Shown piece by piece: positions 1,251 through 50,000 of a DNA stretch of 50,780 bases. Position 1 is the first letter of the stretch. Each line of letters begins with the position of its first letter. The DNA lies in contig FN648694.1 of assembly GCA_000310025.1 (NCBI GenBank), positions 20,349-71,128 on the forward strand. The letters are read 5' to 3'. The translations under genes were made by a program, and so were the position numbers. This DNA comes from Ectocarpus siliculosus. Taxonomy: Eukaryota; Sar; Phaeophyceae; Ectocarpales; Ectocarpaceae. The notes beneath the pieces are model-generated. The model saw only the letters and a list, made by a program, of their open reading frames with translations, was not told the origin of the DNA and made no database searches.

Positions 1251-4200
1251 CGTGAACAAGACAAACCTGAGCAAGTAGGCCACAGTGGTGCTGGGGTCTT
1301 GGTTGGCCACGTCCGAGATGAGGGTCGCCGTCAGCGCCACCAGCACGCCCCCGAACATGTCGCTGTTGCGGAAAACGTCCATCACCGCCGCCGTCAAAAA
1401 CGCCTCCAGCAGGGGGTCTGATCCCACCTGCTGGTGTGTTTGGGTCTGCGCAAAAAAAAAAGAAAAAAGGGGTGGAGATGTGTGAGGAAATTTTTGAACG
1501 GAAACGGAGGGGATAAACAAATGTTGAAGTTGAGTATGTTCCATGCCTGAGGTAGGTATAGTCTTGTCTTTCGACTGAAGAACCTGTACACCTGGAAAAG
1601 GGGGGGTACTATGTACTGTAATGCTAATATTCAATCACGCCTGCAGAACTCGCATGCCTACAAAAAATGAACCGCTACTAAATTAACACCTAGGTTTCCA
1701 CCGAGGGGGGAGGGGGTCAGTAGAGGGGTAACGGACACACGCACCGCGACCAAGCACATGAGGTACAACTGAAAACAACCACCATCAACATAAACACACA
1801 CTTTTTCGCATCGTCAACGTAAACATACACATCGCTACGCCCAAGGTTGCACGACCGAATCCCAACAAACTCTTCGCTTTTGGCTCAACAAACGCTTTCG
1901 GCAAAACTGTTGGCAAAGCTTTTGGGGTACTACGCTTTTGGCTACTAAGCTTTCGGCTAATAAAACGTTTAGGTCAACAAGCTTTTGGCTACCAAAGTAC
2001 TCGTTTAGGTTCACAAGCTCTTGGGAAAACCTTCCCTCCGCTTTGCGCCTGGCGCACCTGGTTCTGAAACGTGATGCTGAGGGCGTTCAGAACGGAGAAG
2101 AGGAGCGCCTTCTGCGACGGAGACGGGTCGGCCAGGGGGCCACCGGCCGCCGCGCTCGCATCGTCCCCTGCGCCCCCCCCCCCGGCCCCGTCGGGACCGC
2201 CTCCCGTGGCGACAACAGCTGAGGAGGAAGAGGGGGCTCCCCTGGCCTTGCCGTCCTTATCTCTACCCTTGCCTTTACCCTTAGTGGTCTTGGAGGAGGA
2301 GGGCGGCTTCTTGCTCTTGCCTTTGCCCTGTGAGGGGGGTACAGGGAGTTGTGAGTTCGAGAGGAGGAGGAGAGAGGGAGCGGGAGCGGGAGAGGGAGAG
2401 GGAGGAGAGAGAGAGATATATAGTATTGGGTTAAACAGTAGAGCAACGACGAGAGGCAAAACGGGAAAGAAAGACCGCGACACGACAAGTTCGCCACTCA
2501 CGCCAACCCCAAAAGCAACCAATCAAGTCACATACCATCTCCGAGGACTTGTTCCGATTTAGCAACGATGCATCACCCCCCCCCCGCCCCAACGAACCCC
2601 CCTCCCCTTGAATGCCAACCCGGAAACAACGCTTACAACACATCAGTAGTCCGACAATAAAACAGTCCTTTTGGGGGACGCTGTTCTCAATTATTGCACC
2701 TACAAGCAAGATGGTCTACAACAGCAGCAGGCCTTTTTCTTGGCAATTTTTCATTCACCAAGCGTGGTTTCAACACAACAGTAGTCAACACCTTGAACAC
2801 TGACAGGGTTTCTCTAATCAACTCGCGCCGTCTCAATATTAACAAATAAATGGTGTTTACCGTTCCCAAAATACAGAAAAAAAAAAGTCGGACCTCGGCT
2901 TTGCCCTTGGGGTCGTCCACCACCATCCCGCTACCGCCACCACCACTACGGTTATCTCCCGCCGCCGCCGCCGCCGCCGCCGCCCCGGCATCGCGAAGCC
3001 TTCCAACCTCAGTGGAAAAAGCGGACGCGAGCACCTGTCGTTGTACCGGCAGTTTAGGCGGGAGAGAGGGGGGGAGGGGAAGAGAGAGAAGACGGAGAGG
3101 TTCCACAATGAACGAACGAAATATATAGGCAAGAATAGGACCACAAGAACAAACTTCGACAAAAAAAAAAAATGCTCGCCGAAAAAAAAAAAAACGAATC
3201 AGGGACCACCAACGAACGGAGGCAGCAGCAGCGAAAATTCGACGCCAACAAATCATTATTAAAAAGAGAAGGTTGACAGCATTGAAAACAAATAAGCCAA
3301 CCGAAAAAGAAGGAAATAGCCCGCGCGTATGCTACCAACACACAAAAATGCCGACGCACCTCGGCTGCGCCGAGATCCCTGAATGCGGAGAGAGCGGCCG
3401 CATTGTTCACCACCGCTGTCTCCATGATCTGAACGGCCTGCGACACCACGTACCGCCGCTGGAAGGGCTTGCCCATGCCGCCGAAGCCCTGCTTGATCAA
3501 AGAAAACAACATGTCACAAAAGGACACAAAAAAAAATCACCAAGACGTCGGTGAGGACGGTACCGTAGGTGACATGACGTAAGATATCACACCCCCTGGA
3601 CCAACTTTCGAAGCTCGATGTCTCGACAGGAGAAGCAGTGACGGTGCCCAAGATGGCGGCGTTGGAACCGTATCGTCGAGAGCTATTCCGAAAACGTATA
3701 CCTCAATTTCGGCATCCTCTTCGTCGTGGAGTAATCGAGCTGTGAAAATCGGTCCAGGGGGTGTGATATCTTACGCAATACCTATGGTAGTCACCAGAAC
3801 ACGAGGGTGGGGGCTCAAACCAACGGCATCTTATCACGAAGGCATGACTGCAGTGGGTGGGTCTCCAACAAACGGCAACTGAACACAAGGCACGGCTATG
3901 GGGTGGGTCTCTCAAGTCAGCGGCAAGTTCAACACGAAGCACTACTGCAGTGGGTGGGTCTCACCAAACGGCAACGCAACACAAAGTACGGCTATGGGGT
4001 GGGTCTCTCAAGTCAACGGTAACTGTTAACACCAAGCACGCGGGGTCGGGGTTGGGTCTGGACCCAACGGTACAGCGGTATGGAACACCAAACACGAGGG
4101 ACGACGCGGCAGCGGGTCCCCACCAAAAATAAACCGTGCCCTTCACGACAAGCACACAGTCGTAGTCCCACCTGTCCGTCCATGTTGAGCTGCACGACGT

Positions 4201-7200: not shown

Positions 7201-10200
7201 ATACAAACCCCGGGGAGAGAACCAGAGAGAACCAAAAAAGATTGATTTCCAGAACAACATCCCTAGCGGTCCAGCGCGGGTAGCTCTCGACACAGCTCGC
7301 CGCATGATGTCATACTCTCGGGTCGTGCCCGCTACACTATTCCCGTCCGGGAGCCGAGAGAACGACACGAATCGGTTGAAATGTAGATGCCGAAAAAAAA
7401 AATCGGAGGCACGAGAGAGAACCGGCCTGAAACGAAACGAGACCACTCTAGATACATATATATATATATATTGTTGCTCCAGCAGCAGCAGTAGCAGCAG
7501 CAGCAGCAAAAGCTACGTCGGGTCCGATGATTGAACACACGCAGCAGCACCGGGGACAACATCGACAAGGGAACATATCGGTAACCCATAGCATACCTCG
7601 TGTGCACCAGCGCCGCCAGGCAGTGCACTGCGAGCACGGAGATGTCGAGCGGGACCGTCATCTGCGCCGCCTGGTCGGTCCTCACGCGGACCAGATCCAC
7701 TAGCTCCTGGATAAGCTCCGGCTGGATGCTCATGTACGCCATGAGGGCCTCTGCGACCGAAAGGCAGTCAGGGAGACAGAGACAAGAGACAGAGGGACAG
7801 CGAGACAAGACAGACACATCGATGAGCAACACAAGTAGACTTATCAGTGGGCTTCAAAAAGGAATCGAATCGAATCCAGCCGAACCACCACCCTCCCCCC
7901 CGCAACCCCTTCTGTACCCTCTCCGGTCCATACCCCTCCTCCCCCTCCACCAGCCTTCCTCAGCAATCGACTCTAGAACTTCGTCCCACTTTCCCTCGGA
8001 GCCCCTGCGCAAACATCCATCGCCCAATCGGCTCTAGAACCCTACGGACCCCCCCCCCTACCTTGGGAAGGATGACAGTACACCAGCGCCGTCAGCGCCA
8101 TGATCCTTCTCCGCACCGCGGCCCGCCGAGCCTCCACCCCCCCCCGCCACGCCACGGCGCTCCTGACCCTCGCCAGGAGGGAGAACAGCCGCCGCTTCGG
8201 GACGGCCGTGTGCTCGTTGGTCAATCGCCGGAACATGCCTTCCGAGGTGCTGTCTGCGTCTCCCGCTTCGCCTGCTGGTCGGCCTCCCACCCTCGCCGGC
8301 TGTGCAATTGTCGGCCAGTCATGCGAATGTAGTTTCCGACAGAAGAAAATGGGAGGTAGGGGTGGGGGGGTGGGGGGGGTGACGGTGGTCTCGCATTGGG
8401 TACATGAGACGACAGCATCAAAAGACAAAAAAGACAAAACAGCAATGAATCGAAAACACCAACGACACGAAGAACAAATACATATACGCATATGATGTGC
8501 CTCGTTAGCCTCTCTCTCTTTGTCTCTGTCTCGGTCTTTCTCCTTCTCTGTCTGTCTTACCACGAAGGTATTGCAACGTTAGTTAGTTTCTCCTCTCTCA
8601 CCACAAATATACGCGTCTCTACCAGTCTCACCACAGAGGTATGCCTACTTCGTCTCTCCCCACAAACATATGCCTCTGTACAAGTCTCTCACCACAAATA
8701 TCGTCCTGAAACGCGTGTACCCCCCGGGCGACGGTGCGCGGTTGCTCTCCTCCTCTTTTTCCCTCCCCCCTGCCTCCCCCCCCTGCCCGCTTCCGGAGGG
8801 AGAAGACCCGTCATCAGCACCGTCAGCGTCATCTTCAGCAGCAGCAGCAGCCTCGTCCGTGCCCTGAGAAGGGGCGTACTCGAAACACAGGTCGCCCGCG
8901 TTGACGGGTAGGATGGACGTGGGTTTCGGCTTCTTCGTCGAAGCTGCTGCCGCTGCTGCCGCTGCTGCTGCCGCTGCTGCTGCTGCTGCGGCAGCGGCGT
9001 CACTCTCATCCTGGACATCCAACAAGACAACAGAAAGGTGGAGAGGACGAGGGGAAAGAGAGATGGGGGGGGGGGGGGGGGATTATGACGGACACCGTTC
9101 TCTTTACATGACATGCAAGACAAACATGACCACAACAACAAACATGGGCTAAAAAAAAGGAACACGACGCTCTTTGCCATGGGACAACGAAAAAAACGCC
9201 ACCGCAACAACAAGCATCAGCAAAACAACAAAAAAATACCACAACCCAAAAGATTGAAATGCCCACGGCCGAGAATCTTGAATTTGAACCACCGCGGCGG
9301 GCGCGGGGGGCGGGAAGGGATTCATACCACGGTACCATTAGACAACTGGCTGGGTTATCTTCGCCTTATTTGCCGTTCCCGAAAGCAAACAAGCACCCAC
9401 AAACGCGAGCCTGTTGCAGCTAAGGGAGGACGGAGGCAACCATCTCTCGCAGCATCAAATCGCCCGCAAGCAAGAATGGCACAGTGTACCGAAAGGAGCC
9501 ACACGTCCTCCGTTTTCTTGTGGTTTGGAAACGTGCGGGGACACTAGAGGCCAAGCATTTGTTGTGCGTGGGAGCAACAACAACTATTTAGCGACAAAAA
9601 CTATGAGACGGTTGTCTCCAGGTTCGCGTGTGAGCAAGTTCCCGTTGGGATGTGTGGTGTGGATACACACCGGTTCAACCTCTGGTGAAGAGGCTGACGA
9701 GTACGGATAGTTGTGTTGTGAGTCAAGGGGGGAAGCAACCTTGTGTTGAAGCAAGGTTCAGCATCCATCCGACACTGTTTCTATCTGTGGCAACACCCCG
9801 AAGGTAGATCTCCGACAGGTCATCTGACGTCACAATCTACTACAGTCTGAGGTGGCATTCACACAACCCAGAGCACAAACCCAGGGAAAACAATCACTTA
9901 CAACTCAGCGTCGTAGCAGCAAACACAAAGTGAAAAGCTTCAATCGGCCACCCCGCCGTGTAGGGAGAGGTGGGAACGGCTCGAAAACAAGGACGCACCA
10001 CAACAACACAACAATCACATCAACAACATCGACCAATGTCTCTAACCAATCAACAACATCGACCAATGTCTCTAACTAGTAAGCACTCTTGTTGACTTCT
10101 CTTCCACGCTACGGGCACTTGCGTCCTCTCGCGTGGTCAATGGTCTAACCGATACAAATCAAGACATGAGTCCTCCATCACGGGCACTTCTACGCCCCCC

Positions 10201-13200
10201 CCCCCCCCCCCCCCCCCNNNNNNNNNNNNNNNNNNNNNNNNNNNNNNNNNNNNNNNNNNNNNNNNNNNNNNNNNNNNNNNNNNNNNNNNNNNNNNNNNNN
10301 NNNNNNNNNNNNNNNNNCCCCCCCCCCCCCCCCCCGCAATCCATACTGGACACCCTGCCGCTCACCTTGGCCTCGCCCTCAACTCTCCCCGTAACGCAAG
10401 CCAGCAGGCCCAACCCCTGACCCCGCCCACCCCACCCGCCGGATAGGGTCATGAGCTCCGCTGACACCGCCTTATCCTTGTGGATGGAGCACATGCTGTG
10501 GAGTTCCGGCTGTGGTGGTGTTCGGTTTCGGGGCGAGGGAAGGGAGAGGTGGTTAACCGGTTGAATAACCCATGGATAAATTGTGTCATGGTCTTTTTGA
10601 CCATATGGTCGAGTTTTGCCAGGGGAGGGGGGGTCCTCGTTTGCTTCATGACTGTATGGCACCGTTGGATTCTTGGCCACAGGTCCACCCCCCCCCCCCC
10701 CCTCCGAGTGGTGGCAAGAGGTAGGGGGGGAGTCCACATACGTACGGAGGGATAAATCAAGTGGAAATACGTCGCAAGAGAGTATCACAACCACCAACAA
10801 CGCGAGCCGAGTCTATGCGGAACAAATGGACACCCAACAACGTTTTGAAGTAAAGTCATCACCTGTTGATGCCGGTGAAGCAGCGGCGGCACCGTGAGCA
10901 GCATGAGACATCGCAACGCGCTCTCCGCCACCGCGTCATCCCCAGCAGCTAGCAGCGAGCGCAGGTGCTGCGAAATAAACAACATAATTACATGAAAAAC
11001 AAGTGTTGGCGGCACACGTGTTGCACCGAGCGGCGGCAGCAGGGGTGAAGAAATACGACAAGCAGGGGCGAGCACAAGCAGTTTGAGTATTTTCAGGAAG
11101 CACCGCAGGATTCGGGGTCGGGAGAGCAATGCAGACCTGAGGAAGTAGCACCACCACCACTACCACTACCACCGCACGCCGTTGTTCAGCAAGCACCGCG
11201 AGATTGGGGTCGGGAGAGCTAGGACCGAGAAAGTAGTACCACCACCACCACCACCGCACGCCGTTGTTCAGCAAGCACCGCGAGATTGGGGTCAGGAGAG
11301 CTAGGACCGAGAAAGTACCACCACCACCACCACCGCACGCACGCACCTCGGCCGAGCTGAAGACGTGCTTGTTGACGCAACTTCTCATCAACACCGCCAG
11401 AAAGTTCAGGCAGCAGAGCACCACCTCGCCCGCCGCCGCTGCCGCCACCGCTGTGTCCTCGCTACCGTCACCGCCAGCATCCCCGCCCCCACCAGCACCA
11501 GCGGCGGGGAGCTTCTTCTGTTGCTGGTGGTCGGCGGGCTGGATGAGCAGCAGTGACGGGTGGCGGAGCATGTTCGTCTCGAGCGTCTCGTCCATTCGGT
11601 CCAGCACATCGCACCTGACACCCAGCCGAGGTGTTGTTCGTGCGCCGTCATTACAAGGGGTAGGATTAGCGGGGGGGGGAGGGGGGGGTGTACTCATAGT
11701 CGTGCATGCCGTAGTCGTTTGACCATTGACCTCGCATCCCTACAAAGCCGGGACGGAGCACGCCGGGTTCTCACCGGACCAGGCTCTCACATCACCAAGC
11801 GCGAAGCGCCGTGAGGTATTTGGCGAGTCGCATGAAGGGTGAGCTGCATCCTGCTAAGGGTGTTCGGCATCTTGTGCTTACTTCCTTGCGTACGGATGAC
11901 AGCTACGTATGACTTAATGTATTTTCTGGTGTTTTCACTTCCAGAGCCAGTTGTAAGCACTGTGTAACTGCCTCGAGGAAGCTTGACCATTTTAACACAA
12001 CGTGGTGCGATCATCCCCCGTTGCGCGGAGTGAGGTTTCTCGACCCCGCACAACATGATCTACTCGACCACCATTATGGTTACCGCCAAAAAAAAAAACC
12101 GAGGTAAAAAAAAAAACCGGTAACCTGGTTGCCGAGTTCACGAAGTTAATTGGCTTGTTTTACAACGTCGTTGCCAAGCGACGAAAACCCAATCCCGATG
12201 GCAAACACCGAGTGGGGGGCTTGTTTTACAACGTCGTTGCCAAGCGACGAAAACCCAAACCCCGATGGCAAACACAGCGGGGGGGGGAGGGGGGGAGTAT
12301 TCCATGAAGTTATGTAGCGTCGGTCAAGCAAACAAGCAGCAGCACCTGCAAATAAATCGGCCTCAGCGGAAACAAAACCAGAAACAAAAAACGCACGCTT
12401 TCTAGCGAGTGCGCACGCGCCTTCCTTGGTCGTTAGCACTGACTGCGTTCACCGGCCCATTTTACAACAAAGAGGATTATTCTTGAACGGTCCCAAGGGC
12501 TCTGCTATGTTTCTCAAGAGAGCTTTTCTATTTTTCGCGCGGGTGATACCAACAAGCGTACTTCAGCACGGCCCTTCTCTTAGCGCCTTGCACCTATATG
12601 CATTCGTATGCATACCACGCAAAACAAAAAGCCTGAAACCCCATAAAACAGGAGAACTCCATCGCAAAACAAACACCACCCACTCCGGCATCGTAAAAAA
12701 AAAGCTTCCATGGTCTCTGGGACCCCTCTCTCTGGGACCCCGCACATCACCTACCATGCGGGTGCACTATCACCACCACCACCACCACCACCGCCAACCG
12801 ATGCGCGACTCACCAGTCGTAGAGGTCTGGCTGCTCCTCCCATTCGTCCTCCCCCTTCACCAGCTTCAACGCGGCGATCAACTCCGCATCGGTTTTGGCT
12901 TCGAGGATGGCGCGCTGGAAATAATATCGGTTCGCGCGAGCATCACACAGAAACAACAATCAATGGGCGATTTCCACTAAAGCTTTTATTTTTATTGTCC
13001 TAATGCGACCCAACGAATCCATCTCTATCTAAGAAAAGAGTCTAAGATAGGTCAGCGTCTTTTCTGTCTCAGCGCTGGGCAAAACGAAAAAAACACACGG
13101 ATATCTCCATCGCGAACACATCACTGAGGAGAGGGGATGGGTTCTAGAGGGCATGTAGCAGAGGGTAGAGGCGGCCCAAAACAAAGAGAGGCTGCAGAGG

Positions 13201-13929: not shown

Positions 13930-16900
13930 GGCCCTGACAAAAAAGGTACACCAGGGCCTTTCATGCACATGATGATAAAAGAGACAGAATGAGGTGGACA
14001 GCACAGAAGAAGGGGGGGGTACGAGAGAAGGTACGGCGATAGAACAGAGCAAAAAGAAAGGGAGGGCAAAAACGAGGCAAAAGGGGGACGAGCGTGTAGG
14101 GCGGGCGGGAGAGAAAGCACAAGAGGAAACGTAGGGAGGGGTGGGGGGAGGCAGACCACCAATATGGTGAGAGTTGTATGCAGCAAGAAACGCAAAAGTA
14201 CCCCAGTAGACGAAATGTGACAGTAAACAAAAAAAAGGCGACGGGAGATAACACGGCGGGGAGTTACCGACTAAATGGGGTCGTCGGGCGATGGAGGTGC
14301 ATTGGGCACGAGTACCAGGACCTACTCTCACTCCTGTCTACATAAGTTTGCACGACAAGTTTTGGGTGAACCTGCTACCGTTTGCTGTAGGTTGCGTAAG
14401 ATATCACATCCCCTGGACCGATTTTCAAAGCTCGATTACTCCACGACGAAGAGGATGCCAAAATTGAAGGAGCACACGTTATCGGAACGCTCTCGACGAG
14501 ACGGTTCCAACGCCGCCATCTTGGGCACCGTCACTGCTTTCCTGCCGAGACATCGAGCTTCCAAAATTGATCCGGGGGGTGTGGTATCTAATGCAACCTA
14601 CGGTACTTGCCGTGCAGAGCACGGGAGAGGGGGAATTGCATAGGGGGCAGAGCGCTTTCCTCGAGTGCAGACAACAACAGCAGTGCACAGCTCTACCAAC
14701 ACAACCAGGGACTTGAGAATTGCTGTGGAACCCTCGCCCGCTTGAGGGAGTTTGCTCGTGCTCTGAGGAGCCCTCGTGTTAGTTTCCTAACCTCAGAGAT
14801 GCAAGACCGTCGGTTGAACACACCAACCACGCAGCACACAGCTCTTTCATTGTTCAGGACTGACCTCGACGAACACAACAGGACGAGAAAGGCAGGGGCC
14901 GAGACAAGACGCAACACCAACTACAGTACGTCGAAACTCGAGCCAGGCCGCGGCACCTCTCTCAACCCTCGGGTTTTGTTATCCCATGACGCCAGTTTTT
15001 TTTGCACACCGTGCGGTAGGCTTTGAACGCACCAGCCGGGGGAAAAGGTGATTATCTCTGTACATGCGCGAGATGTTGTGTGTTTGTTCATGCCATATAT
15101 TTTTCTAGCGGTAAGCGGAAAGCTGCTCGAAGAGGCCACCGCAGCCGCTGCTGCTGCTGCTGCTTCTGCTTCTGCACAGCAGCAACAACGGCTACCACTC
15201 ACTACAAGTAGGTTCCGGGACCGAGGTGTTCACCCATTGAGGGCGGAGGAGGCACTAACCATGGGCACCTTAACCGCGGAACGAGAATGTCGCAGCGCTT
15301 CCAGATCTAGCTGCTACGTGACCTGTGCAGCTATTGGTCAGATTTGTTGGAAGGCCCCAAGGCTCGGGATTTCAAACGGACTCAGCAACATGTCGGAACA
15401 CCTGACAATCACCCACTCAGCTGTCGTCTTCATTTGCCTACAGCAGTAGATGTACCTCAAGGGTCGGTCGAGCAGAAACACGCGCCGTGAATCGCGACGA
15501 AGTGTGTACAACGCAACGGGTGATGTGATTTACTTCTTTCTGCCTTGCCCCCAACCAGCATGTTTGTCGCCTGTACCTGTGATGTAGATTAACGCCGTGG
15601 GACACGAGTCCGTCGAACTACATGTACCACGACATGCTTACAACCTACCACAAAACACTGCTGTTGCCATCCCGAGCAGACTATTTGTCAGGTTAAGCGT
15701 GCCTTCGCCGTGCTAAATAGTCACAACGACGTTCTGCTGGTAAAAGTTAAGTGCGTGCCTAAAGCGTGCCAACCACGATATCTGGGTGCAAGCGTCGCTG
15801 GCCTTGATGGAGGGGGGGGGGTGCACATAATATATGGGAGGGGGGGTCTCTCCCTTGGCGCCGACCACTGGCGGGTTGGATGGAGTCTGTACGGCCTGTA
15901 TGTTGCCTACGGAATCATGATAAATGAGGGAGTAAAAGCATACTCCTGCGAAACGTGGTGCGAAGAATACGCAGCCACCATGAAATCTGGATGCGCGGGT
16001 CCCTAGATATAGATCTTCTTGTGTTGTCTGCGAGCGGAGAGACGAGGAAAACATGTGAGGCAGCCACTCAAGACCAGGGGAACAACCAACTCTTGGTCTC
16101 TCCATTTCTAAGCTCCGCCAAGCATAACAAAGGCAGTCTCAGGTAGGCGTCCTCCAGACACAAGAAGGGGGGGAGGCGTAGCCCTTCTGCGCGCGAGCTC
16201 TCTTGAGAGCAAAAAAAGGCAGAGGAGGTGATGATCTGCCGGCAAGAGACTGCTGCTGGACGCACGGCCCCCTCCTCAATTCTCCCACTTTGTTTCGCCT
16301 AATGTCCCCTTTCTTGGAGTGGTTGGTACTGCTGTTAGAGTGAAGCACAGCTGAGGACTCGCGCTTTCATGATACTTCTCGCAGCCGCGGTTACCTAGGT
16401 TCCAACGCGTGTGGTGCAGTGGGTTTGATTGCCCTCTGGCTGAAGCAATCTTCGACGAGTGACCGCCGGTGGACAAGAAAGATCCGTTGTGCAGCAGCCA
16501 GTATATTAGGGGGATTTGATGTGCCTTGGTGCTCAGCGGACGGAAGTCGAAAGAGAGATGTCCAGAGAGAGATGACTACTTGTGCCCTAGTCCAGCAAGG
16601 GCGTGTGCCCAACGGATATGCACGCAAGAATAGAGCCAATCTCACCCGTGGCAGCGGGGGGGGGAGGGGGGAGTTGCACTCCTGACAGCAGAGCGGCAGC
16701 AAGGTTGAAACCCAAAGAGAGCAAAGGACCTCTAGAATCGAGTCGGTTCTCAGCGAAGAAACAAAAATGCAGTGCGCGGAGCGAGTGTATTTTCTGCAGA
16801 GTATTTCTTGCCCAGGACACGCGAAAAAAAAGTGAGATATACATTCGGGGAACCTCGCGCCTGGTGCGGATCTCAGCTTTGGACGTATAACTTTCAGAGA

Positions 16901-25671: not shown

Positions 25672-28600
25672 TCAGAAAATGGAGCGCTTGAGGGCGACGT
25701 AGTGGATGAGCCTCCAGACCACGGACAACCCCACCAGAGCGCCGCACCACGCCGCGATACTTACGTCGTTAAGATTGGTCCCGCCGTTGCTGAGCGAGTC
25801 CAGCACCTGCCAAGCCAAGCGCGTTCACGGTTGGTTAGCATGGAAGCGGCAGCGGGGGGGGGGGGGGGGGGGGGGTCGTGAAGCGGTCATGAAACCACGA
25901 CAACCAAAAGAAATAAAAATAAAAAGCACAATCGTATACGACGTAGCACCCGTTCGAGACAATCCTCGAGGGGTGTGTGTTGACAATTATTTTCGGTGCT
26001 AGGATCGAGGGAGCATGCCAGATACGGGGCTTAGAGGAGGTCGTAAAACCGTACGCGTATAATTACAAGTGTCGTGCTTGCCTCTGCTCCGGTCGTGCCG
26101 TAGCAGGTGACACACGTGTCCATGCCTGCGTAGGTCTGGCCTTCGAAGACGATCTGCGCCATCGCCTCCCACGAGTACCTGCGACGCAGCGTGCGCACCA
26201 GGGGAGGAAGGAACGCTCACGGGTGTATGTCCCCTTGTAGAGCATCGAGGAGAGTTAAGGAGCTATACGTGCAGTGGCGGGCCCGGTTTAGCGACATGCC
26301 TTGTTTCGCGACCACAAAATCACATGGCACTACGCACCCCGGCGAATAGTCGCTATGCTAGCAACAGCGAACCTGCCCTGAATACCGACCATATTCCCTC
26401 CTGACACACTAAATAGGGGTCGCTGGACCGGGGACCGCTGTGGTTACTTTCGCATGTGTTTAGTACGGCGTTGAGAAGGAGGGCGGCGGAGCGAAGGTTC
26501 GAGATGATGTTGACCATCGTTAACGTGGGAAGGAACGCCTGTCCCTCCCCGCAGGTCGAAACGCCTGCAGATAGATGTGTTTGCTTGCACCTGAGAGGAG
26601 ATATCCAGTAGAGCCACAGCCAAAAGTCGGGCATGTTGATGGGGTCGATGAAGAACCTGGTGGCCACCGATAAGATCGGTTTTGCGCAGCGGAGGGCAAG
26701 TGTTCGTGAAAGCGACAAACGTTTGGGAGTGAGCGTGGATGTAGGCAAGTGCAAAGCAATGCGAAGTGTTTCAGTCGGGCCGCACGATTGTAACTGGCTG
26801 CCATCGTTTGTACAGGGTGTGAACTGCTCCATGGAAATCAACAGAGCTGAGGCCAAGGTGGTGGTTCCTGGATGGTACATCACTGGAGAACCACGTGCCG
26901 ACAGGCGGAGGTCTTGCACTAAATATGGAAAACGTGCTTTAGAAAGACACAGACATCAACCGCTCTGTGTTCCCAACCCCTGTGGCAACGGTGACTGATC
27001 GGGTTCTACCAACAAAAGAGGGCCCTCTTGTCAAGACCAAGATGCCACACAATAGGTCGCGGAGTCATGTGCCGGAACCTCTGGCGAGTTCCGCCCTTTC
27101 GACAATGAATCTTCGATGTAGGCAAGTCATTTTGTCATAGGGGAAGGAGGAGGAGGAGGAGGAGGCGCCACGGACAAAGCAGCAGCGACAGCAGAAGCAG
27201 CGGGTACGGTGAACGCTCTTTCGGTTCGGCTCTCCCAAGAAAATACGAAAAGTGTTCCAAAGGAACTAATCGGCCAGCTATATCACAAGCAATGTATGTT
27301 CCCCGCTCACCCGTTGAAGATGAAGAACATCGAGAGACAGCTGGCGAAGACGGCGATCCCGAGGACGAAGTTCTGGTGTGCCATGTGGGAAAGAGACCTT
27401 GTGCAAATCAGCGTTCCGTCGGTCCGCGGTACGTTTTCACTTCCCCTCTATCGCACGATGTGTATGCACTGGGTACTCCAGACAAAACGAGGTGTGCCCT
27501 GAGTTTCCACATCCTCACTACTGTTGCCAATTGTTGGTAGGCTTCACCCAGGCAACAGAGATATCCAATGTCGTCACGGAGGGGATATATACGAGAAAGC
27601 GAACCAGAGATAATACATGGGAAAATGGATGGCCTGCCAGGTAAAGGAAGGCGAGAGAATGAAGGGATGTGCTACGGACGTGAGTTCATGTACAGACGAT
27701 CGCTGTTGTTCTACGATATACCTACATGGTCCCCCAACAGGACAAGGAACCGAACGCACGCGCGAGGCGGCCATGCACATAAAGAAGGCCCCCCATAGTC
27801 GAGTTTGTCTACACATCAGAGTATGCGTAACGGGCGGGCTTTTGTCTGGCAGGTGTGCGTACGAAACAGACCCCTACGCGTTCTCAATGATCGAACGATG
27901 AACGAAAGCTACTGATGAGTGGGTCCCCGCATTATGGATGGGTAGTTCCTCGCAACACAGCATGTGCACCGGCGCCTTTGTGTCCGCTACACAAGACAGC
28001 CACCTGCTGCCCCATACATGCCGAATACCTGTCCCTACCGAGGCTTGCACACTCAGCCATCGAGAGCGTGTGTTCTTCTCACTGGTTGTCGTTTTTTGCC
28101 TATTTGGCTCAATACTAAGTAATTGAGAGATAAAACAGGGTAACAGGGTATCACCTTGACAATGACCCCAACAAGCTGGGCCAGGCTTTCGATGACGAAC
28201 AGCATGAGGAACATCAGAAGGATGAACTGGAGGTACCTGACAAACGGAAAATGTCGGCGAGAAAGCAGGAGCAGGAGCAAAGAGAGGGGTATGAGCGAAG
28301 AACCTAGACTAGTTACAAATACTAGTTCTTCCTGATTCGGATCGGAGGGCACACACACTATTTGTCTCCTCCGCCGCACACACGCTCCGCTGAGCTCCGA
28401 GTAAGCATTTTCGGAGGAACCTCGAGGTAAATGTGCCGTTCTCATAATATCTCGACCGATGAGGTGCGTCATGAAGACCTCGCGAACAAGCTCTCCGCCC
28501 CCTCCCCCCCCCGAAGAGTTCTGTGACTGTTTTACGAACTGCTGAAACAAAAAGGATAAAAACAAATACTATTTTAGTTCTTTTGAGCCAGCTCGCATGG

Positions 28601-31600
28601 GACGACCCGTCTCGTGCACCTCGATGACATCATCATCATAGCCTTCGCACCATACCTCAAAGGGTCGTCGTTCATGTCAGTGATCCAGTACACCGGCGTG
28701 ATGCAGCACAACGCGATCAGCAGCACGAAGGGTACCTGAACGACTGCGTTGGCGATGCAGAAGCCTGCCACCCCGTACTGTCCGTTCTGTTGGGGGCAAC
28801 GTGACAAGGGAGGGGGGGGGGCGTACTCTTATATTTTGCATGCCGTTGCGATTAGACCATTGACCACGCGTCCTCGAGAGGACGGAGCCATTGACCAAGG
28901 GAGGGGTGTGTGTGTGTACTCATAGTCGTGCATGCCGTAGTCGTTAGACCAGGGAGGGGGGGGGTGGTGGTGAACGAGAAAATACTTTGGAAAAAACATG
29001 TTACAGCCGCGCGAAGGCGAGTTGATGTGATGCATTCGAAAAAATATCCGGTATTGGTGTGCGGTTTCACAGGCTACCTCTACCGGAGCTGTTTCGACCT
29101 GCCTCTCTCCCCCCCCCCCCCCGCCCGCCGCCGCTGCAGTAGCCTTCGCAGAGTTTTTCGTGTAAGTAAAATTTTTGGATAAAAGTATGCAATTTGGGGG
29201 GCTGGATTAGGGTTAGCGTTAGGGTTAGGGTTACAGTAGGGTCTGTGTACCCCCCCCATGTTCTATTTCCTCACAAAACTTTATTTCTCGCAAAGGCGGT
29301 CCCGCCCCTGCCCCAGGTCGGGGAGCACTTGTCTCTGGGAGCACCAATGAAATGGTATTCCTGGAAATGTACCTACATATCCACTTACGTACCCCGCAGG
29401 CTGATTGCCCCAGAAAAAACTGTTGACGAGTGCTCGTACCACACACGCAACACGGGAGTTGGATCAATCATCACTTGACGCTTCCGCCGCGTATTCGCTC
29501 AGGATCACACAATCACGAAGCCTGCCCCCGAGTCCTGAGAAAACAAACCAGAAATGAGGTCTTGCCTGCACTTCTTTCACGACGGCTTCCTTCTCCAGCT
29601 CGAAAACAGGGATAGCCGCCATGTCCATGTCTGATAAACCGAGAAAAGAAGAAAGGAAGCGTGTTTTTCTTGTTGTTGCTTCGAGGGGGACGAAACACAA
29701 ACAAACGCGGTTTGTTTTCTTCGACGCGGGGCAGAAGAGACTCGGGTGCTCGCTGTTGATGTGTCGAGAGCATCGAGACCAAGGCAGACGATCACAGAAA
29801 CCTCGAGCACCACCGCGTGGGGCACGAGACGCTTGTACTATCCCCAAACTGTCGACTTTTGGCTATACGACAGACCTACGTGGCCAACATCAGAGTGCCC
29901 CTGTGCGTAACATCCAACTTGTGACGTAACCACATGCACACCTCTTCTTTGGAGGCTCGTACAGACTCTGTCCCACTTTTCTTTGGAGCCTCGCACATGC
30001 TTTGCGGGAGACTTTGTCGCGCTTTTCTTTGGAGCCTCGTACATTCCAAAACGCGAGACTTGTACCAGAGCGGTGGCGAATGCCACAACGAACCTCTCGC
30101 CATCGGAACACTTGCACGACGATAACACAACACAGCCACAAAGTTGTCAAAAACGAAAGATGGGTAGAGCTAGGACTGCAACCGATCAACTCACGTTGCC
30201 GTACGAAACCGGGGCAGTGCTGGTTTAGACGAAAACGAGCGAGATGCGAGGCTGGTGCCAACATTCGGATCGGTGCAGTATAAGACTTGGCAAGTGCATT
30301 GGATAATATTCTACGTTTTATTGAGTCCGCGGGCAAAAATCCACGCTGAAGCACACATAGATTCACACGCACTTGGAAACAGCAAAAGAATAGTATGACG
30401 ATTTTCAAGACGATTTTTCGACTTCGAGCAACCAAGGGCCAAGACTCACACGAGTTGAAGGCGTTGATCCAGAGGATTAGAAACACCCGGTTGAGGATGT
30501 CCTCCTGTGTGTTTTCGACCTGGTAGTACCTGCTCGGACCGCGTTGATAAAAAAATAAACTTCAAGCCAGCAGACTAATAGGTGCTTGGATTGGTCTTCA
30601 GGCGCCGAAGCATAACCTAGAGGATGTCGATTACACAAGGAACGCCCTCCGATCACACACATGTGGGTATCTCAGCCTTACCGAGGAGATGACACGGCTG
30701 CGACACTATCCGTCGCATCCAACCATCGTATCGAGCGCTAGCGTAGCGTAAAGTCGGTCTAAACCAGCCATGCCGACCACCTAGAAGGCTTGTGCAATCA
30801 CACTGGTGCCTTCCACGGGCATGGCACTCACACTAGGCCGAGGAAGAAGGACATGAACAGGTACAGCACCAGCCTTGCCGAAGAGGAGGGTCGGAGCGCA
30901 TAGCGCCAAGAGAAAAGGACATGGGAGCAGCAAGAGGGGGGGGGGTTAGGGTGGCGCGAGAGACGGGTGGCAGGGTGAGTGCTCTCGAGGAAGAATCAAC
31001 TGATCGAAATATTTTGCCAGATCTTTCCGCGCGACTATTCCGTCAGCACAACCGCCCGCAAGTCGGCAAATCGGAGCGACAATGCGCGCCGGCCAGCGAT
31101 CACCACGAAGTAGCCTAGACGTCCCTCGTCGGAGGATCATTTTGCAACAGTAGTCCGAGTGCGGTCTCGAAGCACTCTCCCGAGAGGATAATTGGGTGAC
31201 ATTGTTGTCCAAAGAAGGTTTCGAGCGCCGCCCCTCCGTAAATCCTCACGCATGCCGTGCCGAGAAGATGGAAAAAAAACGGTGATAAATATTAGGAAAA
31301 ATAAATACACACACACAAAAAGTACCCGTTCGAGATATACCCACATTCGAACGGGATGTACATAGTACACTATCGGTTCCGACTGGTTCACACCGACGCG
31401 GAAGGGTGACAGGAGGAGCCGCTGGCCGCATACGATGAGTTTTTGCTAAGCCGATGGCCGTTTGCTATCCAAACAACCACCCGGAGCGAGTCCACAGCAC
31501 GGCTTCAACGGTGTGAGAAAAGTAGCGAGCCTTGTTGTGCGCTGTGCGTCGTTATGTGAAACTCCAGCAAACAAATCTCGCAGTGTTATGTGAAACTCCA

Positions 31601-34600: not shown

Positions 34601-36154
34601 TACATCTCTTTCGAGATGGAACCGGGAGGATGCGGGATGCGAGCAGGCGTTGTGGGGGCGGGGGGGAGGCGAAGAACACCCGGTCGTAAGGGATTGTTTG
34701 CGGGGTTCCTCTGTACGCCTGCTCCTGCTCAGCCCGTTTGTCGGGTTAACTTATCGCGAATCACCCCTTGTCCAGGCGGAGCAACTGGTTGGGTTTCGAG
34801 ACAGTTCGATTTTACCGCGTCGCGTATGAGGACACTTCCCAGGCCGTTTTTCTCCTCAAGCGCAAAACTCGAAGAACTATAGGAAGACATGCATATCATG
34901 TACACGTTGTAGGCGGTTTGAAAGCTGCTACGGCTACAATCACAGTATAACCGGAGAGAGGTACTCTGAGTGCTGCATCTTGTTGACAGCCGTCGGAGGC
35001 AAGAGATTGCCGAACTTTAGTTTGGGTGACGGCGATTTTCACCTGTGAGAGCACTCCACAGGCGGTCTTCCTGAGGGACGTAAGCGGCGTTCTCCAAGAA
35101 GAAGGACTTGGACATCGCCTTGCCGTTGACGGTTACGTCGCCCGTGATGTCCAGGCCCTTCGTGCCAGCCGAGACCTGTCCTCAACACAAGCCCCCCCCC
35201 CACCCCCCGACGGGAATCGTTTCGTTGGACGGGACGGGGTGGGCAAAGCACAAAGGGGGGGAGGTCAATGGGGAAAAGCCGAGACATGATCGAGGCTTGA
35301 CGGTGTAGGGGAGACACCAGCGAGCGCTTGAGCTCCCGGTTGCGCCGCGAAACATTCGCCGTACCAAAAAGATGGGGCGTGGGGGGAGAGAAAGAACTTG
35401 ACGATTCCAACCAAGAAGAGAAATGCAATTGACACGAACTAAATGTGAGCAAGACCCGCAGTATGAGCACGCCTTCTTCTTACGCGCACGTGGTCACGAG
35501 CCTGATCCACTCTACGAGCACAAAACCCTCTCGACCTCGCACGCCGTCATGACACATCTACGTACCTTTCCGACGAGCACGTCGAGCAGAGACGTCTTGC
35601 CCGCTCCGCTAGAGCCGATAATGGCCAAGATCTGCCCTGACTCCACGGCTCCACTGACTCCCCCGAGGATGTGTTTGACGCCAGCCTCCCCCCCCATCAG
35701 AGACGCCTTCATCTTCGAAACCTCTACGCTGAAACGCACGTCGCGAAAGCGGAAGTCCACCTGAAGGAAATGTTCCGTTGTTTGGAGGCAGGCGTGGGTT
35801 GGACAGTCGCGGAGGTCGTCAAGCTGGTTCACTGGTAGAAAAACCATGTTGGAAAACACAAGCAGCTATACCTGAGACGAGCAAGTCCTGCTCCAAACGG
35901 CGCCGGGGTGTAAATATGTTCGCAGAAATACCCAAACTTCAGATGGGGTTGCAGCCTCTCCATTTGCTCCGATCCGATCCACTTGATCCCCTATCGCTAC
36001 CCACGAGGGTTATCAGCAACGGTTCAGATGGTGCGGAACATTTTCCCACCTTCTGGTCGCCGGGAGATTTCCAGGGTTTGCTCAAGGGCTCCGCCGGGCA
36101 GACGCGGCTGCTGCCGACCTCCACATCTTCACCAGCTACAGCTGAAGAGGCCAT
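25672..36154 (-). CDS. ABCG (WHITE/PDR)-type half-transporter
   Basis: ATP-driven membrane exporter with the nucleotide-binding domain before the membrane domain, as in ABCG half-transporters that dimerise. Exons in transcript order: 36050-36154, 35566-35760, 35043-35175, 34328-34449, 33622-33718, 33192-33331, 32527-32649, 31881-32107, 30832-30873, 30450-30529, 29566-29630, 28656-28786, 28155-28236, 27311-27372, 26591-26656, 26082-26178, 25672-25806. All are in phase: 633 residues and TGA, the usual family length. Walker A GSSGAGKT is at about 84-91, Q-loop YVPQED in exon 3, signature ISGGQKRR at about 194, Walker B FLDEPTSGLD at about 218 and H-loop SVHQPS at about 252. Membrane segments follow (FMSFFLGLV, VPFVLLIALC, FILLMFLMLF, GIAVFASCLSMFF), then a cysteine-containing loop (CVTC) and a final helix. 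Two donors appear to be GC. The substrate cannot be told. The first exon rests on phase and position only. Confidence 0.93.
28805..28900 (+). repeat. G-run-linked dispersed repeat, copy C
   Basis: After a run of G comes GCGTACTCTTATATTTTGCATG, then CCGTTGCGATTAGACCATTG, ACCACGCG and a short CCTCGAGAGG palindrome. It is a diverged relative of the copies at 4.7 and 11.7 kb, immediately beyond the acceptor of ABC transporter exon 28656-28786. Confidence 0.65.
28905..28965 (+). repeat. G-run-linked dispersed repeat, copy D (short)
   Basis: After (GT)n comes TACTCATAGTCGTGCATG and CCGTAGTCGTTAGACCAGGG, then a G-run. The core is identical to the copies at 4.7 and 11.7 kb, and it lies directly after copy C in the same direction. 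Confidence 0.75.
29207..29233 (+). repeat. Interstitial TTAGGG telomere-like repeat
   Basis: Four and a half units (TTAGGG, TTAGCG, TTAGGG, TTAGGG, TTA) lie in the ABC transporter intron between exons 29566-29630 and 28656-28786. A further TTAGGG-like sequence follows at once. Confidence 0.85.
29941..30062. repeat. Irregular minisatellite
   Basis: Three copies of a CTTTTCTTTGGAGCCTCG core followed by (T/C)ACA start near 29942, 29976 and 30021, in an intron of the ABC transporter. Confidence 0.75.
34484..34625 (+). repeat. G-run-linked dispersed repeat, two diverged tandem copies
   Basis: GGGGAATACTCATGTTTTGC followed by GTGCC starts the first copy. GGTACTCAATTCTGGCTTGC followed by CGTATG and GATCGTTGACCACG forms the second. 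Both follow G-runs and keep the order of the repeat core seen at 4.7, 11.7 and 28.9 kb. They lie in the ABC transporter intron upstream of exon 34328-34449. Confidence 0.55.
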
Positions 36155-37893: not shown

Positions 37894-38602
37894 CTATGGG
37901 AGTTGAAGGTTGAAGCGCCGGGGGTGCGTGCTCGCTGCATGAAATTATTTGGGACGTCGGACCCACCATGGCAGAATCGCACCAGGGTGCCTTGAAAAAG
38001 CTAGACCGAAGTGATTAAGTTGCATTTTTCCGGGGTCGGAGAGATAGCACTAGTCGGAGAGATGGCATCGGTCGGAGTGATGGTCACCAGGGTGCGAACA
38101 TCAGCAGTTGCTGCTGTGTGTTCTGTGTTCTGTGTGCTGTGTTCTGTGTACTGCTGTGTTCCGTGCTCCGCGAAGCTCCGTGTTGGTGCCGTGGTTCTGC
38201 AGCGGTTCGTCTCTTGAGAACTGGTTCTAAACATTGTACAGACCAGCAGTACACACGCAGACTCCACCACATCCCGTTCGACTGCTGTGGGTATATCTCG
38301 AATGGGTAGTCTTTCTGTGTGTGTTTTTATTATTCCTTAATACAAGGCGCGCCTTCAGAGTGGGCTCATCAGAGCATAGCAGTAGTGTTATCAAGGCGTG
38401 ATGCAAGATGAAAGCAAAGGATGTGTTGGTTTGAATCAACTGCCAGCTGCCATCATTGACGTCTGCCAAGCTCGAAAAGCTCATCAACAAAAAACGAGGT
38501 CTATTTACACTCTGTTAGTGACTCTTTAGGACTAACCGATGTTGCACTTTGCAAGGCTAGGTTCCTCACGCGAGCAAGGCTAGGTTCCTCACCCCACATC
38601 TA

Positions 38603-38630
38603 CCCTAACCCTAACCCTAACCCTAACCCT
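38603..38630 (-). repeat. Interstitial CCCTAA telomere-like repeat
   Basis: Four CCCTAA units and a CCCT remainder, in opposite orientation to the tract at 29207-29233. They lie inside the inverted-repeat element. Confidence 0.9.
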
Positions 38631-38670
38631 CACCCACGGCCAAAGCACGGCCTAGCGGCCGCGAACTGGT

Positions 38671-38697
38671 CGAGAACGCGGCTGCGCCGCGTTCTCG
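38671..38697. repeat. Perfect GC-rich hairpin
   Basis: CGAGAACGCGGC, then TGC, then GCCGCGTTCTCG: 12 perfect base pairs with a three-base loop. No T-run follows, so it does not look like a terminator. Confidence 0.9.
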
Positions 38698-41354
38698 GAA
38701 TGCGGAACGGCGAGAGGGCGCTGGAGAGGGTCAAGGCTAGGAACCAACGCCGGACCAATCAGAGGGCGTAAAAGCCGTTAGATAGGAAGAGTCACTAACA
38801 GACTGCAAAAACTACTGCAAAAAACAGACGTGGTTTCAAGTGGTTTCGACTCGAACAGCCCAACGAACCCCAACGAACCAAAATAGATTTTTCTTTCCAT
38901 ACAAATAAATCTGTTTACAGCAGTCTTGGATGCCTGCCTCTTGCACGCTCCAACCTCTAGACTACCCTCTTTTGCGTTTCAAGCCGGTCACCCCAGTGGC
39001 CTAGTGCCCAACTATCCTTATTCTTGATGTCGTCGGGGACGGCAACGGTTGCTGCTGCTGATGGTGGTGGAGAGGACGTGTTTGTTGCGGGTTGAATGTT
39101 CGACTCTCTCTCGGAAACTTTCCGCTATTTACAACCATGAGCAGCACGCGAGCGCACGAACGAACCCAACGCATGGGGCACGGAGGTAACCTCGCGCCGA
39201 AATGACTGCACGCGGCGTGTGCTGGGCACGTGTTTCTTTCCCGGCGATCGAGTGCAACTGATGCTGAAGGGGAGGAATGTGCGTGAGCGAGGTTTGTGAA
39301 GAAAAACGAAAAAGGAGAAAAACAAAATGTGCGCTGCCTATATTCTTCAAGGACGACAGCAGTGCAACGAAAATTGAATCTCTTACTGGCTCTTTGTTGC
39401 AGCCTTTATCGCAGTCATCATCGCAGACGCGGGGGATACACAAAAGACATAATGCACAGCAACTGTGCCAGCGTGCACGCACCACGAAGGAGACAACGAC
39501 TTCTCGTGCTCTTCTTGTGGTTCTGACCAATCATCAGTGGTGGCGGCAGCAATGTTGAGTTGTTGGTAATTGGCGAGCGTTGGCAAGCGGTGCGCGAAAA
39601 AAATGCCTCTCAAATAATACTTACCAGAAAGCGCACACGTCGCTGTTGTCTCGATCTCCCTTGCTTGACCACGGAGGACGAGCCCGCTCACTCCACCATT
39701 AAAGGAGCAGTATAGCGTAGTGCTTTGTTTTTCCGAGGCTATAGATGGCGTTGCTCACGCTTGTCTGTCTGTGCGTCCAAGCAGCACAGCGTTTACAATT
39801 AATTTGCGATGGCAGACAAAACATTACGGAAGGGTTTGGCTGCCTATTTTACTCACCGAATATATATGTAATCGCCCGGCCCATCTCCAGTCGGCAACCA
39901 ACGGCATGATACGCAACCGTGCGGATAGTGCAGCAAACCCTTTTCGAGCATACTGGTTATATCCTTTTGGCAGTGGGCTTATTGCGTGCCTGGTGCGGCG
40001 CGCGCTGTGCGTGTGTATGTGCATCATCTCGTGTCTCCCTCTCCCCTCTCCTCGTGATGCCAAAATGAAATAGCAAAATGGGTAGGTGTATGTACCAATG
40101 TACCTAAGGAGGATTCTTGCAATTGCACAACTAGTCTGCTGCTGTTATTGTTGTAGACACACTCTGTCTGCCGATCGATCCGCAACAACACAGTTTTTGA
40201 GAACAAAATTGTTCCGCTTTTTTAGGTGGGGACTATATGTACAAAAAAAAAGCACCCACAAAACCAGTGACATCTCCCCTGTGGCCATCTGACTGTGTAC
40301 ATGATGCTTGTGTATTGGGAGGGGGGGGCAGCAGGAACATGTCGAAAGGGTTGGGTGTTCGGGTATGTACAGTATATATCGTGTGTGTGTGTGTGGTGAA
40401 CAAATGACCACAAAAAAAGTGTGTGTGTGTGCAGCTGTTTCTTGGATGCGGGGCAATGCTATTGTATACTCACTCCCTGTTTTCGTGCTAATCCCCTGGT
40501 TGACGGCGCGCGGCTATGGTGTCATTGTTGCTACACAGACACAATGCTGAGTGTTGTTAGCAGGCAAGCATTGGCAGGTAGGTGTAGATGAGAGTTTTGC
40601 GTGTGCGCGTGCCGGGTGCGCACTTTTTCATGCTTGGGGCCGCGTGTCATAAAACTCATCGGTACACACCTGAAATGTTATCGCTCGTTCGTTGCGGAAT
40701 GCCCTGTGTCAGTCGCACGTGGTCAGTGGCGAGGAGCAAAAGCAGCACGCACGTCGCTACAGCCGTGTAGTAGCCAGTAGGCTCCAGGTTCTATCGGAGA
40801 GGTCTCTTTTTCACGGGCTGCTCCGAATAACAAGGGAGGCTGTAGGCGTAGCTCAAGCACAACGAATGATGGCCGTTGGTTGGCTCCTCTCTTCTGGATC
40901 ACGTGCACAATGGCTGGATCTTCCTAGGGTACGGTAAGGATCCGCGGTGAAATCAGGTGGCGTTGCGGCGTTTTTCGGTACGGGATCTTTCTCACCTGCT
41001 CAACAACATGATTTAGTCGGCAAATTGAAGCCACGCATAGGCTGTAGTGTATACAGGGGGTGGTGGCAACGTGCCTGTGGAGCAACAACACCATGAATGA
41101 GTGTGTGTGTAGACCGACGCGCGGTGAACATCAACAGCGTAGAACTAAAGAGTTGACAAAAGAGTAAACCTAAAGATACTCGGACATCAGCCCGCCAACC
41201 AACCATCAGTTGAATTGTATGCATGCGCACGCGACTTGAAGAAGAAACTGGAAAGAGAGGCTTACTCGCAGGCGGTGGAATAACATTAGGTGTACTTACA
41301 ACCACCGCTCGGGCACAACCAATCACTCTGCGTGTGGATGTCATGAGTGTCGTC

Positions 41355-47058: not shown

Positions 47059-50000
47059 ATGATGCTCGTCGTCCATCGACGCCCAGCGAGCCGAGGAGCT
47101 GCTGTCTTGTTGACGAGAAGAAAGGCCACCACCACAACGACCCACTGGCCGCCAGCGGCGTCCGGCGGCTACACCGCCGCCATCCTGGATGATTCTGCTT
47201 TCCGAAAACCTTGGGAAAAGGATCTCATCAAGTCGTGGTGAGTGCTGCTGCTGCTGGCTCTCCCATGTTGCATGCATATCTCTCGCCTTGATGCGTGTTT
47301 CGAAGTCTGCTGCTGGTACACACGCACACACGGGCATGTGACTTGCAGCTTCTTTTGCCTCCGAGAACACGTCAGAATGTGCACGACCGTGTCTGTCAGT
47401 CTGCATGAGTGTGTGTGCTGCACGTGTTTTTTTTTAAAGAAAAACACGCTCGTCGGGGACATTCCTGCTGTAATGTATGCGGGCCCTCTGGGTTGCCTCT
47501 GCTGCTGCGCATCATGCTTTGGTTGCTTGTTCAGCGCCAAGCGCAAGCAGGTGAGAGTGAGTCTCGAGTCGATACTCGACGTCTCGACTGGCGAGAGGCC
47601 ATGGAGGGCCTCTTTCGGTGCGGCCAACCCGGACGTGTCGGCCGGCCCAGAACCAGAACTCGGACGGAGGGCATGCACGAGTTACGTTTCGGACGCCGAG
47701 AGACGGAAGATAGCAGAGGGCCAGCTGCAGAGCGCGCAGTACCTTCACCGGGAGCTGCCGGTCAGATTAGCGCAGGCGGTCACGGCGTTAGACAAGGTGC
47801 GCTGTGAGTTTTCCTTAAAAAACAACAACATATAAAAGCAATCTCTACAATTACCCGTAAGTAGAAATCCCCGAGAGGATAAAATTGGCGATGCGTTCTT
47901 GCGTTAGAGGCACACCAACCAGCGCGCTCTAAGATATTTCCCTAATCGTGTCAACCGACAATTTGTCGCGCAATCCCCCGATATGCTGTGCGGCGAAATC
48001 TACAAGCCGGAAGCAGCGCGGAAGTGGTGCCCAACATTCGAACGGTTGCAGCATATACGAGACTTTGCGGCACGACCTTTTGCAGCCCGCAAAATGCGAC
48101 TTGGGAATGACGTCGCCGGTAGGCATTTTGTTTTCGCGCATCGTACCATTCTACTAAATACTATACACAGCAGTCAAGACTGCCATCGTCTGTGAATAAA
48201 CCCGAGCTGGTGGGTTAGGTCGTGCGACGGAATTACCGCTCTAAATTCGATAGCATTTTTGCTCCGCATTATGTCCTAGGCAAATCAGCTCACATGTTCG
48301 TCGAATACTTCTATTCCCTGCGACACTCTGTCTGCTTGGCGTGGCGTGCACATGCTTGAAGAAGGCGGGATTATCTTACTTGTTCCGGTCCATAAATATA
48401 TTAAACAAGAAGCGGCAAACACCGCCGTGTCAACAACGCCGTGTCATCCACCACGGGCGGTTGCCACAACACAGTTGCGGGTCGGTATTGAGTGCCTGGT
48501 GGATTTTGCAAGCCTGGTTTGATTTTCAGAATGACCTTACCAGCATTTCACTTGTATCCTGGATGGTTTAACTGTGAACATTAGGCGCGGGCCAATGAAC
48601 AGACTGCACACAACCAAACAATGTCAAATACGTTCGCCAATCTTCCTTCCGCAGCAAATCTTGCAGTATCGCGCTTGCACTCTCAGGCTGCGGTGTGGCA
48701 CTTGCGCTCCTGCTAAGGTATGCCAGAGGTTCTTTAAAGATACGAGGCTGGCAGCCGATTACGCGCGTCGACCCTGTCCGTCACTGCTTTGGCCATCCTT
48801 TCTCTCGCTCCTCACGAACCATCCCGTTCTGTTGTTCTCGTGGCTGTCCACCGCTTCTGCTACTGTTCCCAGATGAAGGATACAGGGCTAACATCCACCC
48901 TTCCCGTGAAACGAGTACGCGAGGACTACCTTCAGAACTTCCGGGAGCTGCAAGAGTCCCCGAGGCCGCACGAGCTGGAACAGGTGAAGGAACACTGGAG
49001 GGGCGGATAGAGCGAGACACAAGAGATGAGCCTAACTTAGTAGGTAGAGAGAGCGAGATGCAGATGTTCTGATACCTCTGCTGCTAGACGACATGCATCT
49101 GCAATGGATGTATGTGGAGAGAGAGGGAGAGAGAGGGAGAGAGAGAGACAGAGTGACAGAGAGAAGGAGAGAACCTGCCGAGGGCCTTTGCTTTGGACAT
49201 TCCAAGACCACAAACAGGGAAACTTGGCGCTGAAGGAGCCTGGTGCAGAACATGACCTGATCACACCCATAGGTCACACGAGACAAACAGGGACCCCTGT
49301 GGAATTTAATCGTTGTTCGATGTCGGTCCTGAGTGTACATATCGTGCCCTGGCCGATTGCAGGGTCAAGACACATCGAAGTAGGCGTGTATCCTCTTCTC
49401 AATTGCTTCTATCCCCGACTGCTGGGTTCGAGACACATGTTTTACCCCCGTGATATGTACTCATCCATTCGCGCCCTGCGAAGCCGGGTGCTAGCTAATT
49501 TGAGCCTCTTGCCCCTGCGTCCCTTCAGGTGGCGGCGTTTACGGAGACGGTTAGGAGGGTACAGAAGCGGGGCAGCGACACGGTGCTGCAGATGGCCTGC
49601 GGGCTGCAGGATCTGATGCGGGGTGGCAAGCGGGAGGAAAGCGAGGCGCTTGGGCGGATCCAAGATTTCTTGGACGATTTTTACCAGGTGATGGAATGCT
49701 TCTGTGCTTCTTCTGTGTTCGTTGTACGATTTTTTTTTTTCTGCTTTTTCGAAAATGTGCATATACACTCAAAGACTTCCAGTTCGAGATATATCCACAG
49801 CAAGTCACTCGAAGGGGATGGATGAAGACAGTGAGGGGGGCGAGTTCTTGTTGTGTTGCGGCCAGGGCGGCCTTGGTCCAGCGATGGCTGTCTGCTCGCG
49901 CTTGGGAGTCAACTCTCTCGGACTTGCTCGCCTTCTGCTTCCGCGCACGGCGTCTGCAGAATCGCGTCGCAATGAGGTTCCTCTGCGGGCACTACCTGGC

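Follow-up and report, generated by a model that had tools for sequence, protein, structure and literature searches.

The window, that is, the whole stretch of DNA analysed here, consists of 50,780 nucleotides of an Ectocarpus siliculosus contig (FN648694.1, positions 20,349 to 71,128) and has a G+C content of 53.6%. It includes 234 stop-to-stop reading frames of at least 90 amino acids; 20 of them were picked by eye and scanned against Pfam with thresholds of 0.01 and 0.05. Matches were obtained for five of the 20 frames:

7332-7853, minus strand: DUF908 match, Pfam E-value 5e-4, below the cut-off; the same frame gives a poor match to a phage spanin (E-value 0.024)
26353-26955, minus strand: ABC2_membrane match, Pfam E-value 0.007, below the cut-off
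35512-35865, minus strand: ABC transporter match, Pfam E-value 1.7e-7, above the cut-off
47242-47835, plus strand: branched-chain-dehydrogenase-kinase-like piece, Pfam E-value 5e-4, below the cut-off
49499-49825, plus strand: branched-chain-dehydrogenase-kinase-like piece, Pfam E-value 2.6e-5, just above the cut-off

The subject of this analysis, a 290-bp unit bounded by inverted repeats, is located at 38512-38801, between the ABC transporter piece and the kinase pieces. No sign of a chromosome end was seen in its surroundings within the window.

A MITE-like element of about 220 bp, with the ends CCGTAGGT and TA-type flanks (ends placed by eye), is present in three copies:

3563-3787: copy 1, 225 bp, ends by eye
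14385-14603: copy 2, 219 bp, left flank TG rather than TA, ends by eye
from 18529: copy 3, eroded

Its length is close to the 217 bp of TcMar-N1_Ec32, a mariner MITE of Ectocarpus (PMC12477816), the two being compared by length only. Another family is represented by the 224-bp MITE-like element at 6570-6793, which has the ends CCGTAAGAGTC and TA flanks, and whose central 41-nt stretch is 66% similar to one in the element at 3563-3787. MITE-like elements are thus common here, since three small elements with TA-type flanks (3563-3787, 14385-14603, and 6570-6793, ends by eye) share the window. The Ectocarpus genome is described as containing almost 12,000 mariner copies, most of which are MITEs (PMC12477816). 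The base composition of the window, its TTAGGG repeats, and these small elements suggest DNA of a brown alga.

A further dispersed repeat (4690-4800, 11672-11782, and 28837-28951) has a common core around TCATAGTCGTGCATGCCGTAGTCGTT beside runs of G or C; this core had no match in viral contigs. To the left of the 290-bp unit, a short tandem array with a period of 18 (three copies, 78% match by TRF) lies at 38034-38088. A 52-nt dispersed repeat is found in inverted orientation at 38286-38337 and 31294-31345 with 88% similarity, and the former copy ends 174 bp left of the unit.

Architecture of the 290-bp unit and its flanks

The features recognized in the unit and at its borders are as follows:

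38509-38511: left putative target-site duplication ACT, of the ANT type, from the sequence
38512-38526, plus strand: left terminal inverted repeat (TIR) CTGTTAGTGACTCTT, from the sequence and an inverted-repeat scan
38551-38569, plus strand: direct repeat GCAAGGCTAGGTTCCTCAC, 19 nt, copy 1
38574-38592, plus strand: direct repeat GCAAGGCTAGGTTCCTCAC, copy 2, period 23
38592-38635, minus strand: G-quadruplex-type motif covering the telomere tract
38602-38635: interstitial telomeric tract, 4.5 perfect CCCTAA units (38603-38629) with a degenerate edge; 5.7 copies with 96% match by TRF
38671-38697: perfect hairpin of 12 bp with a loop of 3 (arms 38671-38682 and 38686-38697)
38727-38741, plus strand: AGGGTCAAGGCTAGG, a 12/15 match to TTAGGG repeats in inverted orientation
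38787-38801, minus strand: right TIR, exact reverse complement of the left TIR, from the sequence and an inverted-repeat scan
38802-38804: right putative target-site duplication ACT, from the sequence

The exact 15-bp inverted repeats, the direct repeat present twice (at 38551 and 38574), the 4.5 CCCTAA units, and the 12-bp perfect hairpin had been named in the original prediction, and each was borne out at its position. A third copy of CAAGGCTAGG, weak and possibly due to chance, is seen at 38732 inside AGGGTCAAGGCTAGG. Among the stop-to-stop frames of at least 90 amino acids, only a 103-aa frame on the plus strand (38460-38771) covers most of the unit. This frame is too short for a transposase, and the unit therefore has no transposase coding capacity.

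The frequency of such inverted repeats was estimated from 60 dinucleotide shuffles of the window, with a gap of at least 50 and a start-to-start distance of at most 700. Perfect inverted repeats of at least 15 bp appeared 0.067 times per shuffled window. Those of at least 16 bp were absent from the 60 shuffles, versus three in the real window: the TIRs of the unit, a CAG-repeat pair, and the ends of a recognizable MITE (3578-3775). Besides the hairpin, the window has no perfect stem of at least 10 bp with a loop of 3 to 8; 40 shuffles yielded 0.4 such stems per window at 10 bp or longer and none at 12 bp or longer. Likewise, apart from the CCCTAA array, no hexamer array in the window has at least three perfect units, hexamers built from a 2- or 3-base repeat being excluded from the count. 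Exact direct repeats of at least 18 nt within 60 nt occur at six places in the window, and the 19-nt direct repeat is not special. Nor is the G-quadruplex-type motif, one of 28 in the window. Most parts of the unit are individually beyond chance. What unites them as one element is the pair of TIRs and, more weakly, the ACT/ACT flanks.

The trinucleotide ACT abuts both TIRs exactly. It resembles an ANT target-site duplication and was not part of the original prediction, whose proposal of a bounded, transposon-like small element at these borders it supports. The uninterrupted pairing of the TIRs extends one base beyond them (38511-38526/38787-38802), and the perfect match is 16 bp instead of 15 because the left T of an ANT duplication always pairs with the right A. 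The flanks were surveyed for 132 inverted-repeat pairs of at least 9 bp, spaced 100-600 bp apart. The TIRs of the unit were the only pair with flanks of the ANT form (1/132), and two of the other pairs had another abutting 3-bp direct repeat. By an arithmetic estimate, the ANT form is expected by chance for about 1 in 190 pairs, or about 0.7 of the 132, and the observed count is no enrichment. The ACT flanks have weight solely because the pair that they adjoin is among the three longest, a 3-bp duplication being weak evidence; when other choices of boundary are allowed for, the probability of finding such flanks by chance is put at 1 in 20 to 1 in 60.

The true ends of the element could be further out and lack a duplication, because the inverted similarity continues imperfectly into the flanks, with 21 of 23 bases matching (38504-38526/38787-38809). 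Transposons of the EnSpm/CACTA type have TIRs starting with CACTA or CACTG and generate a 2-3-bp duplication. Outer ends of this kind (CACTCTG from 38508, and CAGTCTG from 38805 on the minus strand) were considered and rejected; the flanking triplets, TTA and CAA, differ.

The repeat itself contains TA (38516-38517/38796-38797). In a MITE of the Tc1/mariner type, this TA would be the duplicated target, the TIR would be GTGACTCTT, and the complementary bases outside TA would be accidental. MITE-like elements with TA-type flanks do occur in the window, and Mariner-Tc1 shows the most copies among the DNA superfamilies in Table 1 of PMC12477816. This assignment, however, requires five accidental complementary bases outside TA, and the resulting TIR does not resemble CCGTA(A/G)G, the end sequence of the MITEs in the window; the assignment is regarded as improbable.

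The telomeric tract, the copy number, and the fold

The CCCTAA tract lies wholly inside the TIRs. The window contains seven telomere-like clusters with at least 12/15 matches, and two of them are real tracts, one in the unit and the other at 29202-29238. None of the seven is located just outside the TIRs; at this locus, the element therefore did not land in a telomere array. The original prediction proposed either a mobile unit that carries telomere sequence or an element that inserted into or captured it. Carrying or capture is supported in part. Insertion into a telomere array finds no support. A decayed inverted telomere tract at 38727-38741 was also considered and was rejected as more than a hint: its 12/15 match is one of the seven clusters, and the alignment of the left and right interiors as inverted copies is not significant (112 of 500 shuffles equally good).

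The second tract, at 29202-29238, consists of four to five TTAGGG units, one of them a variant, and lies between two ABC-transporter-like pieces, 9 kb from the unit. It is possibly in an intron. No inverted repeats of at least 13 bp bracket it within 700 bp. Telomeric tracts therefore occur here independently of the element, and the absence of bracketing TIRs fits an origin of such tracts on their own.

No second copy of the element was found in the window by blastn with 38401-38900; it is a single copy there. A TIR-like site at 39380-39394 has three mismatches, a similarity no better than chance would give (18 of 100 shuffles have as many matches). Exact patterns of the element had no match in viral contigs and prokaryotic genomes, a result that says next to nothing about the host; the patterns with two TIRs covered only inner spacings of 240-270 in viral contigs and prokaryotic genomes and of 200-230 in viral contigs. 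Control patterns from two other repeats of the window likewise had no match in viral contigs.

These observations bear on an alternative in which no mobile element is present and a chance inverted repeat in intergenic DNA surrounds an interstitial telomeric tract inserted by break repair. The single copy in the window, the second tract 9 kb away without such TIRs, and the occurrence of ANT-form flanks at the chance rate all agree with it, and mammals provide documented cases of telomeric repeats inserted at double-strand breaks (PMC7215372; PMC2246262). It is nevertheless unlikely, given the rarity of inverted repeats of 15 bp or longer in the shuffled windows and the ACT/ACT flanks that come in addition.

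A long inverted repeat could also function as an RNA or DNA fold, in a structured non-coding RNA or a regulatory unit. The minus strand of 38504-38809 folds far better than shuffled sequence, with a z-score of -9.1 (-7.7 in a second run). The excess is smaller for the plus strand, with a score of -3.9 (second run -4.3), or -4.7 when it is folded as DNA. Without the TIRs, the scores are -3.9 (minus) and -1.2 (plus), and without the TIRs and the hairpin they fall to -2.0 (minus) and +1.1 (plus). As the TIRs and the hairpin supply most of the folding excess, the fold does not count as separate evidence for a function as RNA. Moreover, the tile of the window starting at 4897 is of similar folding strength (-153.3 kcal/mol), the window has no Rfam match at a family's gathering score, and the interiors are not significantly inverted copies of each other. 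A functional fold is judged very unlikely, and the share of the TIRs and the hairpin in the excess was the reason for rejecting it as the leading explanation.

Another candidate is a gene for telomerase RNA with CCCTAA as its template. Template-like C-strand repeats are indeed present on the plus strand of a structured stretch of about 300 nt. The tract has 4.5 repeats, however, compared with about 1.3 to 2 in described templates (PMC7658794), no Rfam family reaches its gathering score, and the TIRs and ACT flanks would be left unexplained. Such a gene is hardly credible here. When 38200-39200 was searched against Rfam with E-values up to 5, the sole match was a sub-threshold one to RybB (38339-38383, E-value 0.53), a bacterial RNA, and it was taken as chance and rejected. 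No tRNA was found in the window, and no bacterial-type promoter or terminator in 38300-39000. Among the papers listed by literature searches, none appeared to deal with a telomerase RNA of brown algae.

A probable MITE-like transposon with a passenger tract

The 290-bp element is probably a non-autonomous, MITE-like cut-and-paste DNA transposon with the telomere tract as a passenger. It was probably mobile in the past. In the proposed mechanism, the 15-bp TIRs would be bound by a transposase produced from another site in the genome, which would excise the element, and insertion at an ANT trinucleotide, here ACT, would leave ACT on either side. Three passengers would be carried along between the TIRs: the tandem duplication of 23 bp, the hairpin, and the telomere tract. 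The last of these most likely represents a short interstitial telomeric sequence, which may have originated by insertion during break repair or by growth from a C/A-rich seed, and it may have been acquired before or after the landing of this copy.

In a special form of the MITE-like reading, the internal CCCTAA tract would be a conserved, working part of a MITE family and present in most copies. In its favor, the 4.5 units are perfect and lie between intact TIRs; the tract at 29202-29238, on the other hand, is outside any such TIR pair, and the element is known from a single copy. A conserved tract is accordingly given little credence. If it were conserved, transposition would scatter telomere seeds through the chromosomes as sites that form G-quadruplexes, bind telomere proteins, or serve in healing. 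Transposition would then be a route for spreading interstitial telomeric sequences, and copies sharing the tract would make the genome a direct test of fragile-site, healing-seed, or protein-binding roles. If, as is more likely, a single MITE copy has captured the tract, the element would be a small, dateable example, and copies with and without the tract would tell break repair from slippage as the way of entry of the telomere repeats.

Comparison with known elements

The best guess for the transposase is the Pangu/IS5-like type of PIF/Harbinger, a tentative assignment that is a lead and not a filing. Among the Harbinger families of Ectocarpus, groups duplicating ANT and groups duplicating TNA are described, and the ANT pattern has been likened to Pangu (PMC12477816). 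Pangu transposons generate ANT duplications and have TIRs of 11-40 bp, usually starting with AG or GG; they are known from one heterokontophyte and two algae, among others, and the TIRs of PIF/Harbinger start with A or G (PMC4482050). The element resembles Pangu in its ACT/ACT flanks, which have the ANT form and are weak evidence, and in its 15-bp TIR, which is within the length range. In contrast, the TIR starts with CT rather than AG or GG, and neither a transposase nor a second copy was seen in the window.

The TBE elements of Oxytricha are DNA transposons that have host telomeric repeats in their TIRs, generate ANT duplications, and encode three proteins (PMC4724952). They are similar to the element in that a DNA transposon bears telomeric repeats and in the ANT duplication. 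They differ in that the tract of the element (38602-38635) is internal, one-sided, and outside the TIRs, and the element is just 290 bp long.

Tetrahymena has transposon-like inverted-repeat elements with internal C4A2 repeats. The internal telomeric sequence is alike, whereas the host, the repeat, and the layout differ. The name "Tel-1" has no occurrence in PMC7599177, and passages of that paper gave no confirmation of these elements.

In mammals, break repair is described as inserting short interstitial telomeric tracts (PMC7215372). The shared feature is a small number of TTAGGG units in an internal position, seen also at 29202-29238, where bracketing TIRs are absent. TTAGGG motifs are also present in an approximately 98-bp satellite of Ectocarpus subtelomeres (PMC11541908), which is similar in placing telomere motifs in a non-telomeric repeat; the satellite is tandem and located at chromosome ends, whereas the element is a single unit. 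The only TRF array in the window with a period near 98 bp is at 3814-4040 (period 96), and its consensus has no TTAGGG.

A telomere tract inside a mobile element would thus not be new in itself. According to the original prediction, no family of such a layout was known. That the element is strange on this account is not supported, as Oxytricha TBE, the ANT-duplicating Harbingers of Ectocarpus, and MITEs are all described, the last in large number from Ectocarpus (PMC12477816). Literature searches covering titles and the starts of abstracts found no MITE with interstitial telomeric repeats. A MITE family with a conserved internal tract, if true, would be a new variant, an internal and one-sided counterpart of the telomere-bearing elements of ciliates.
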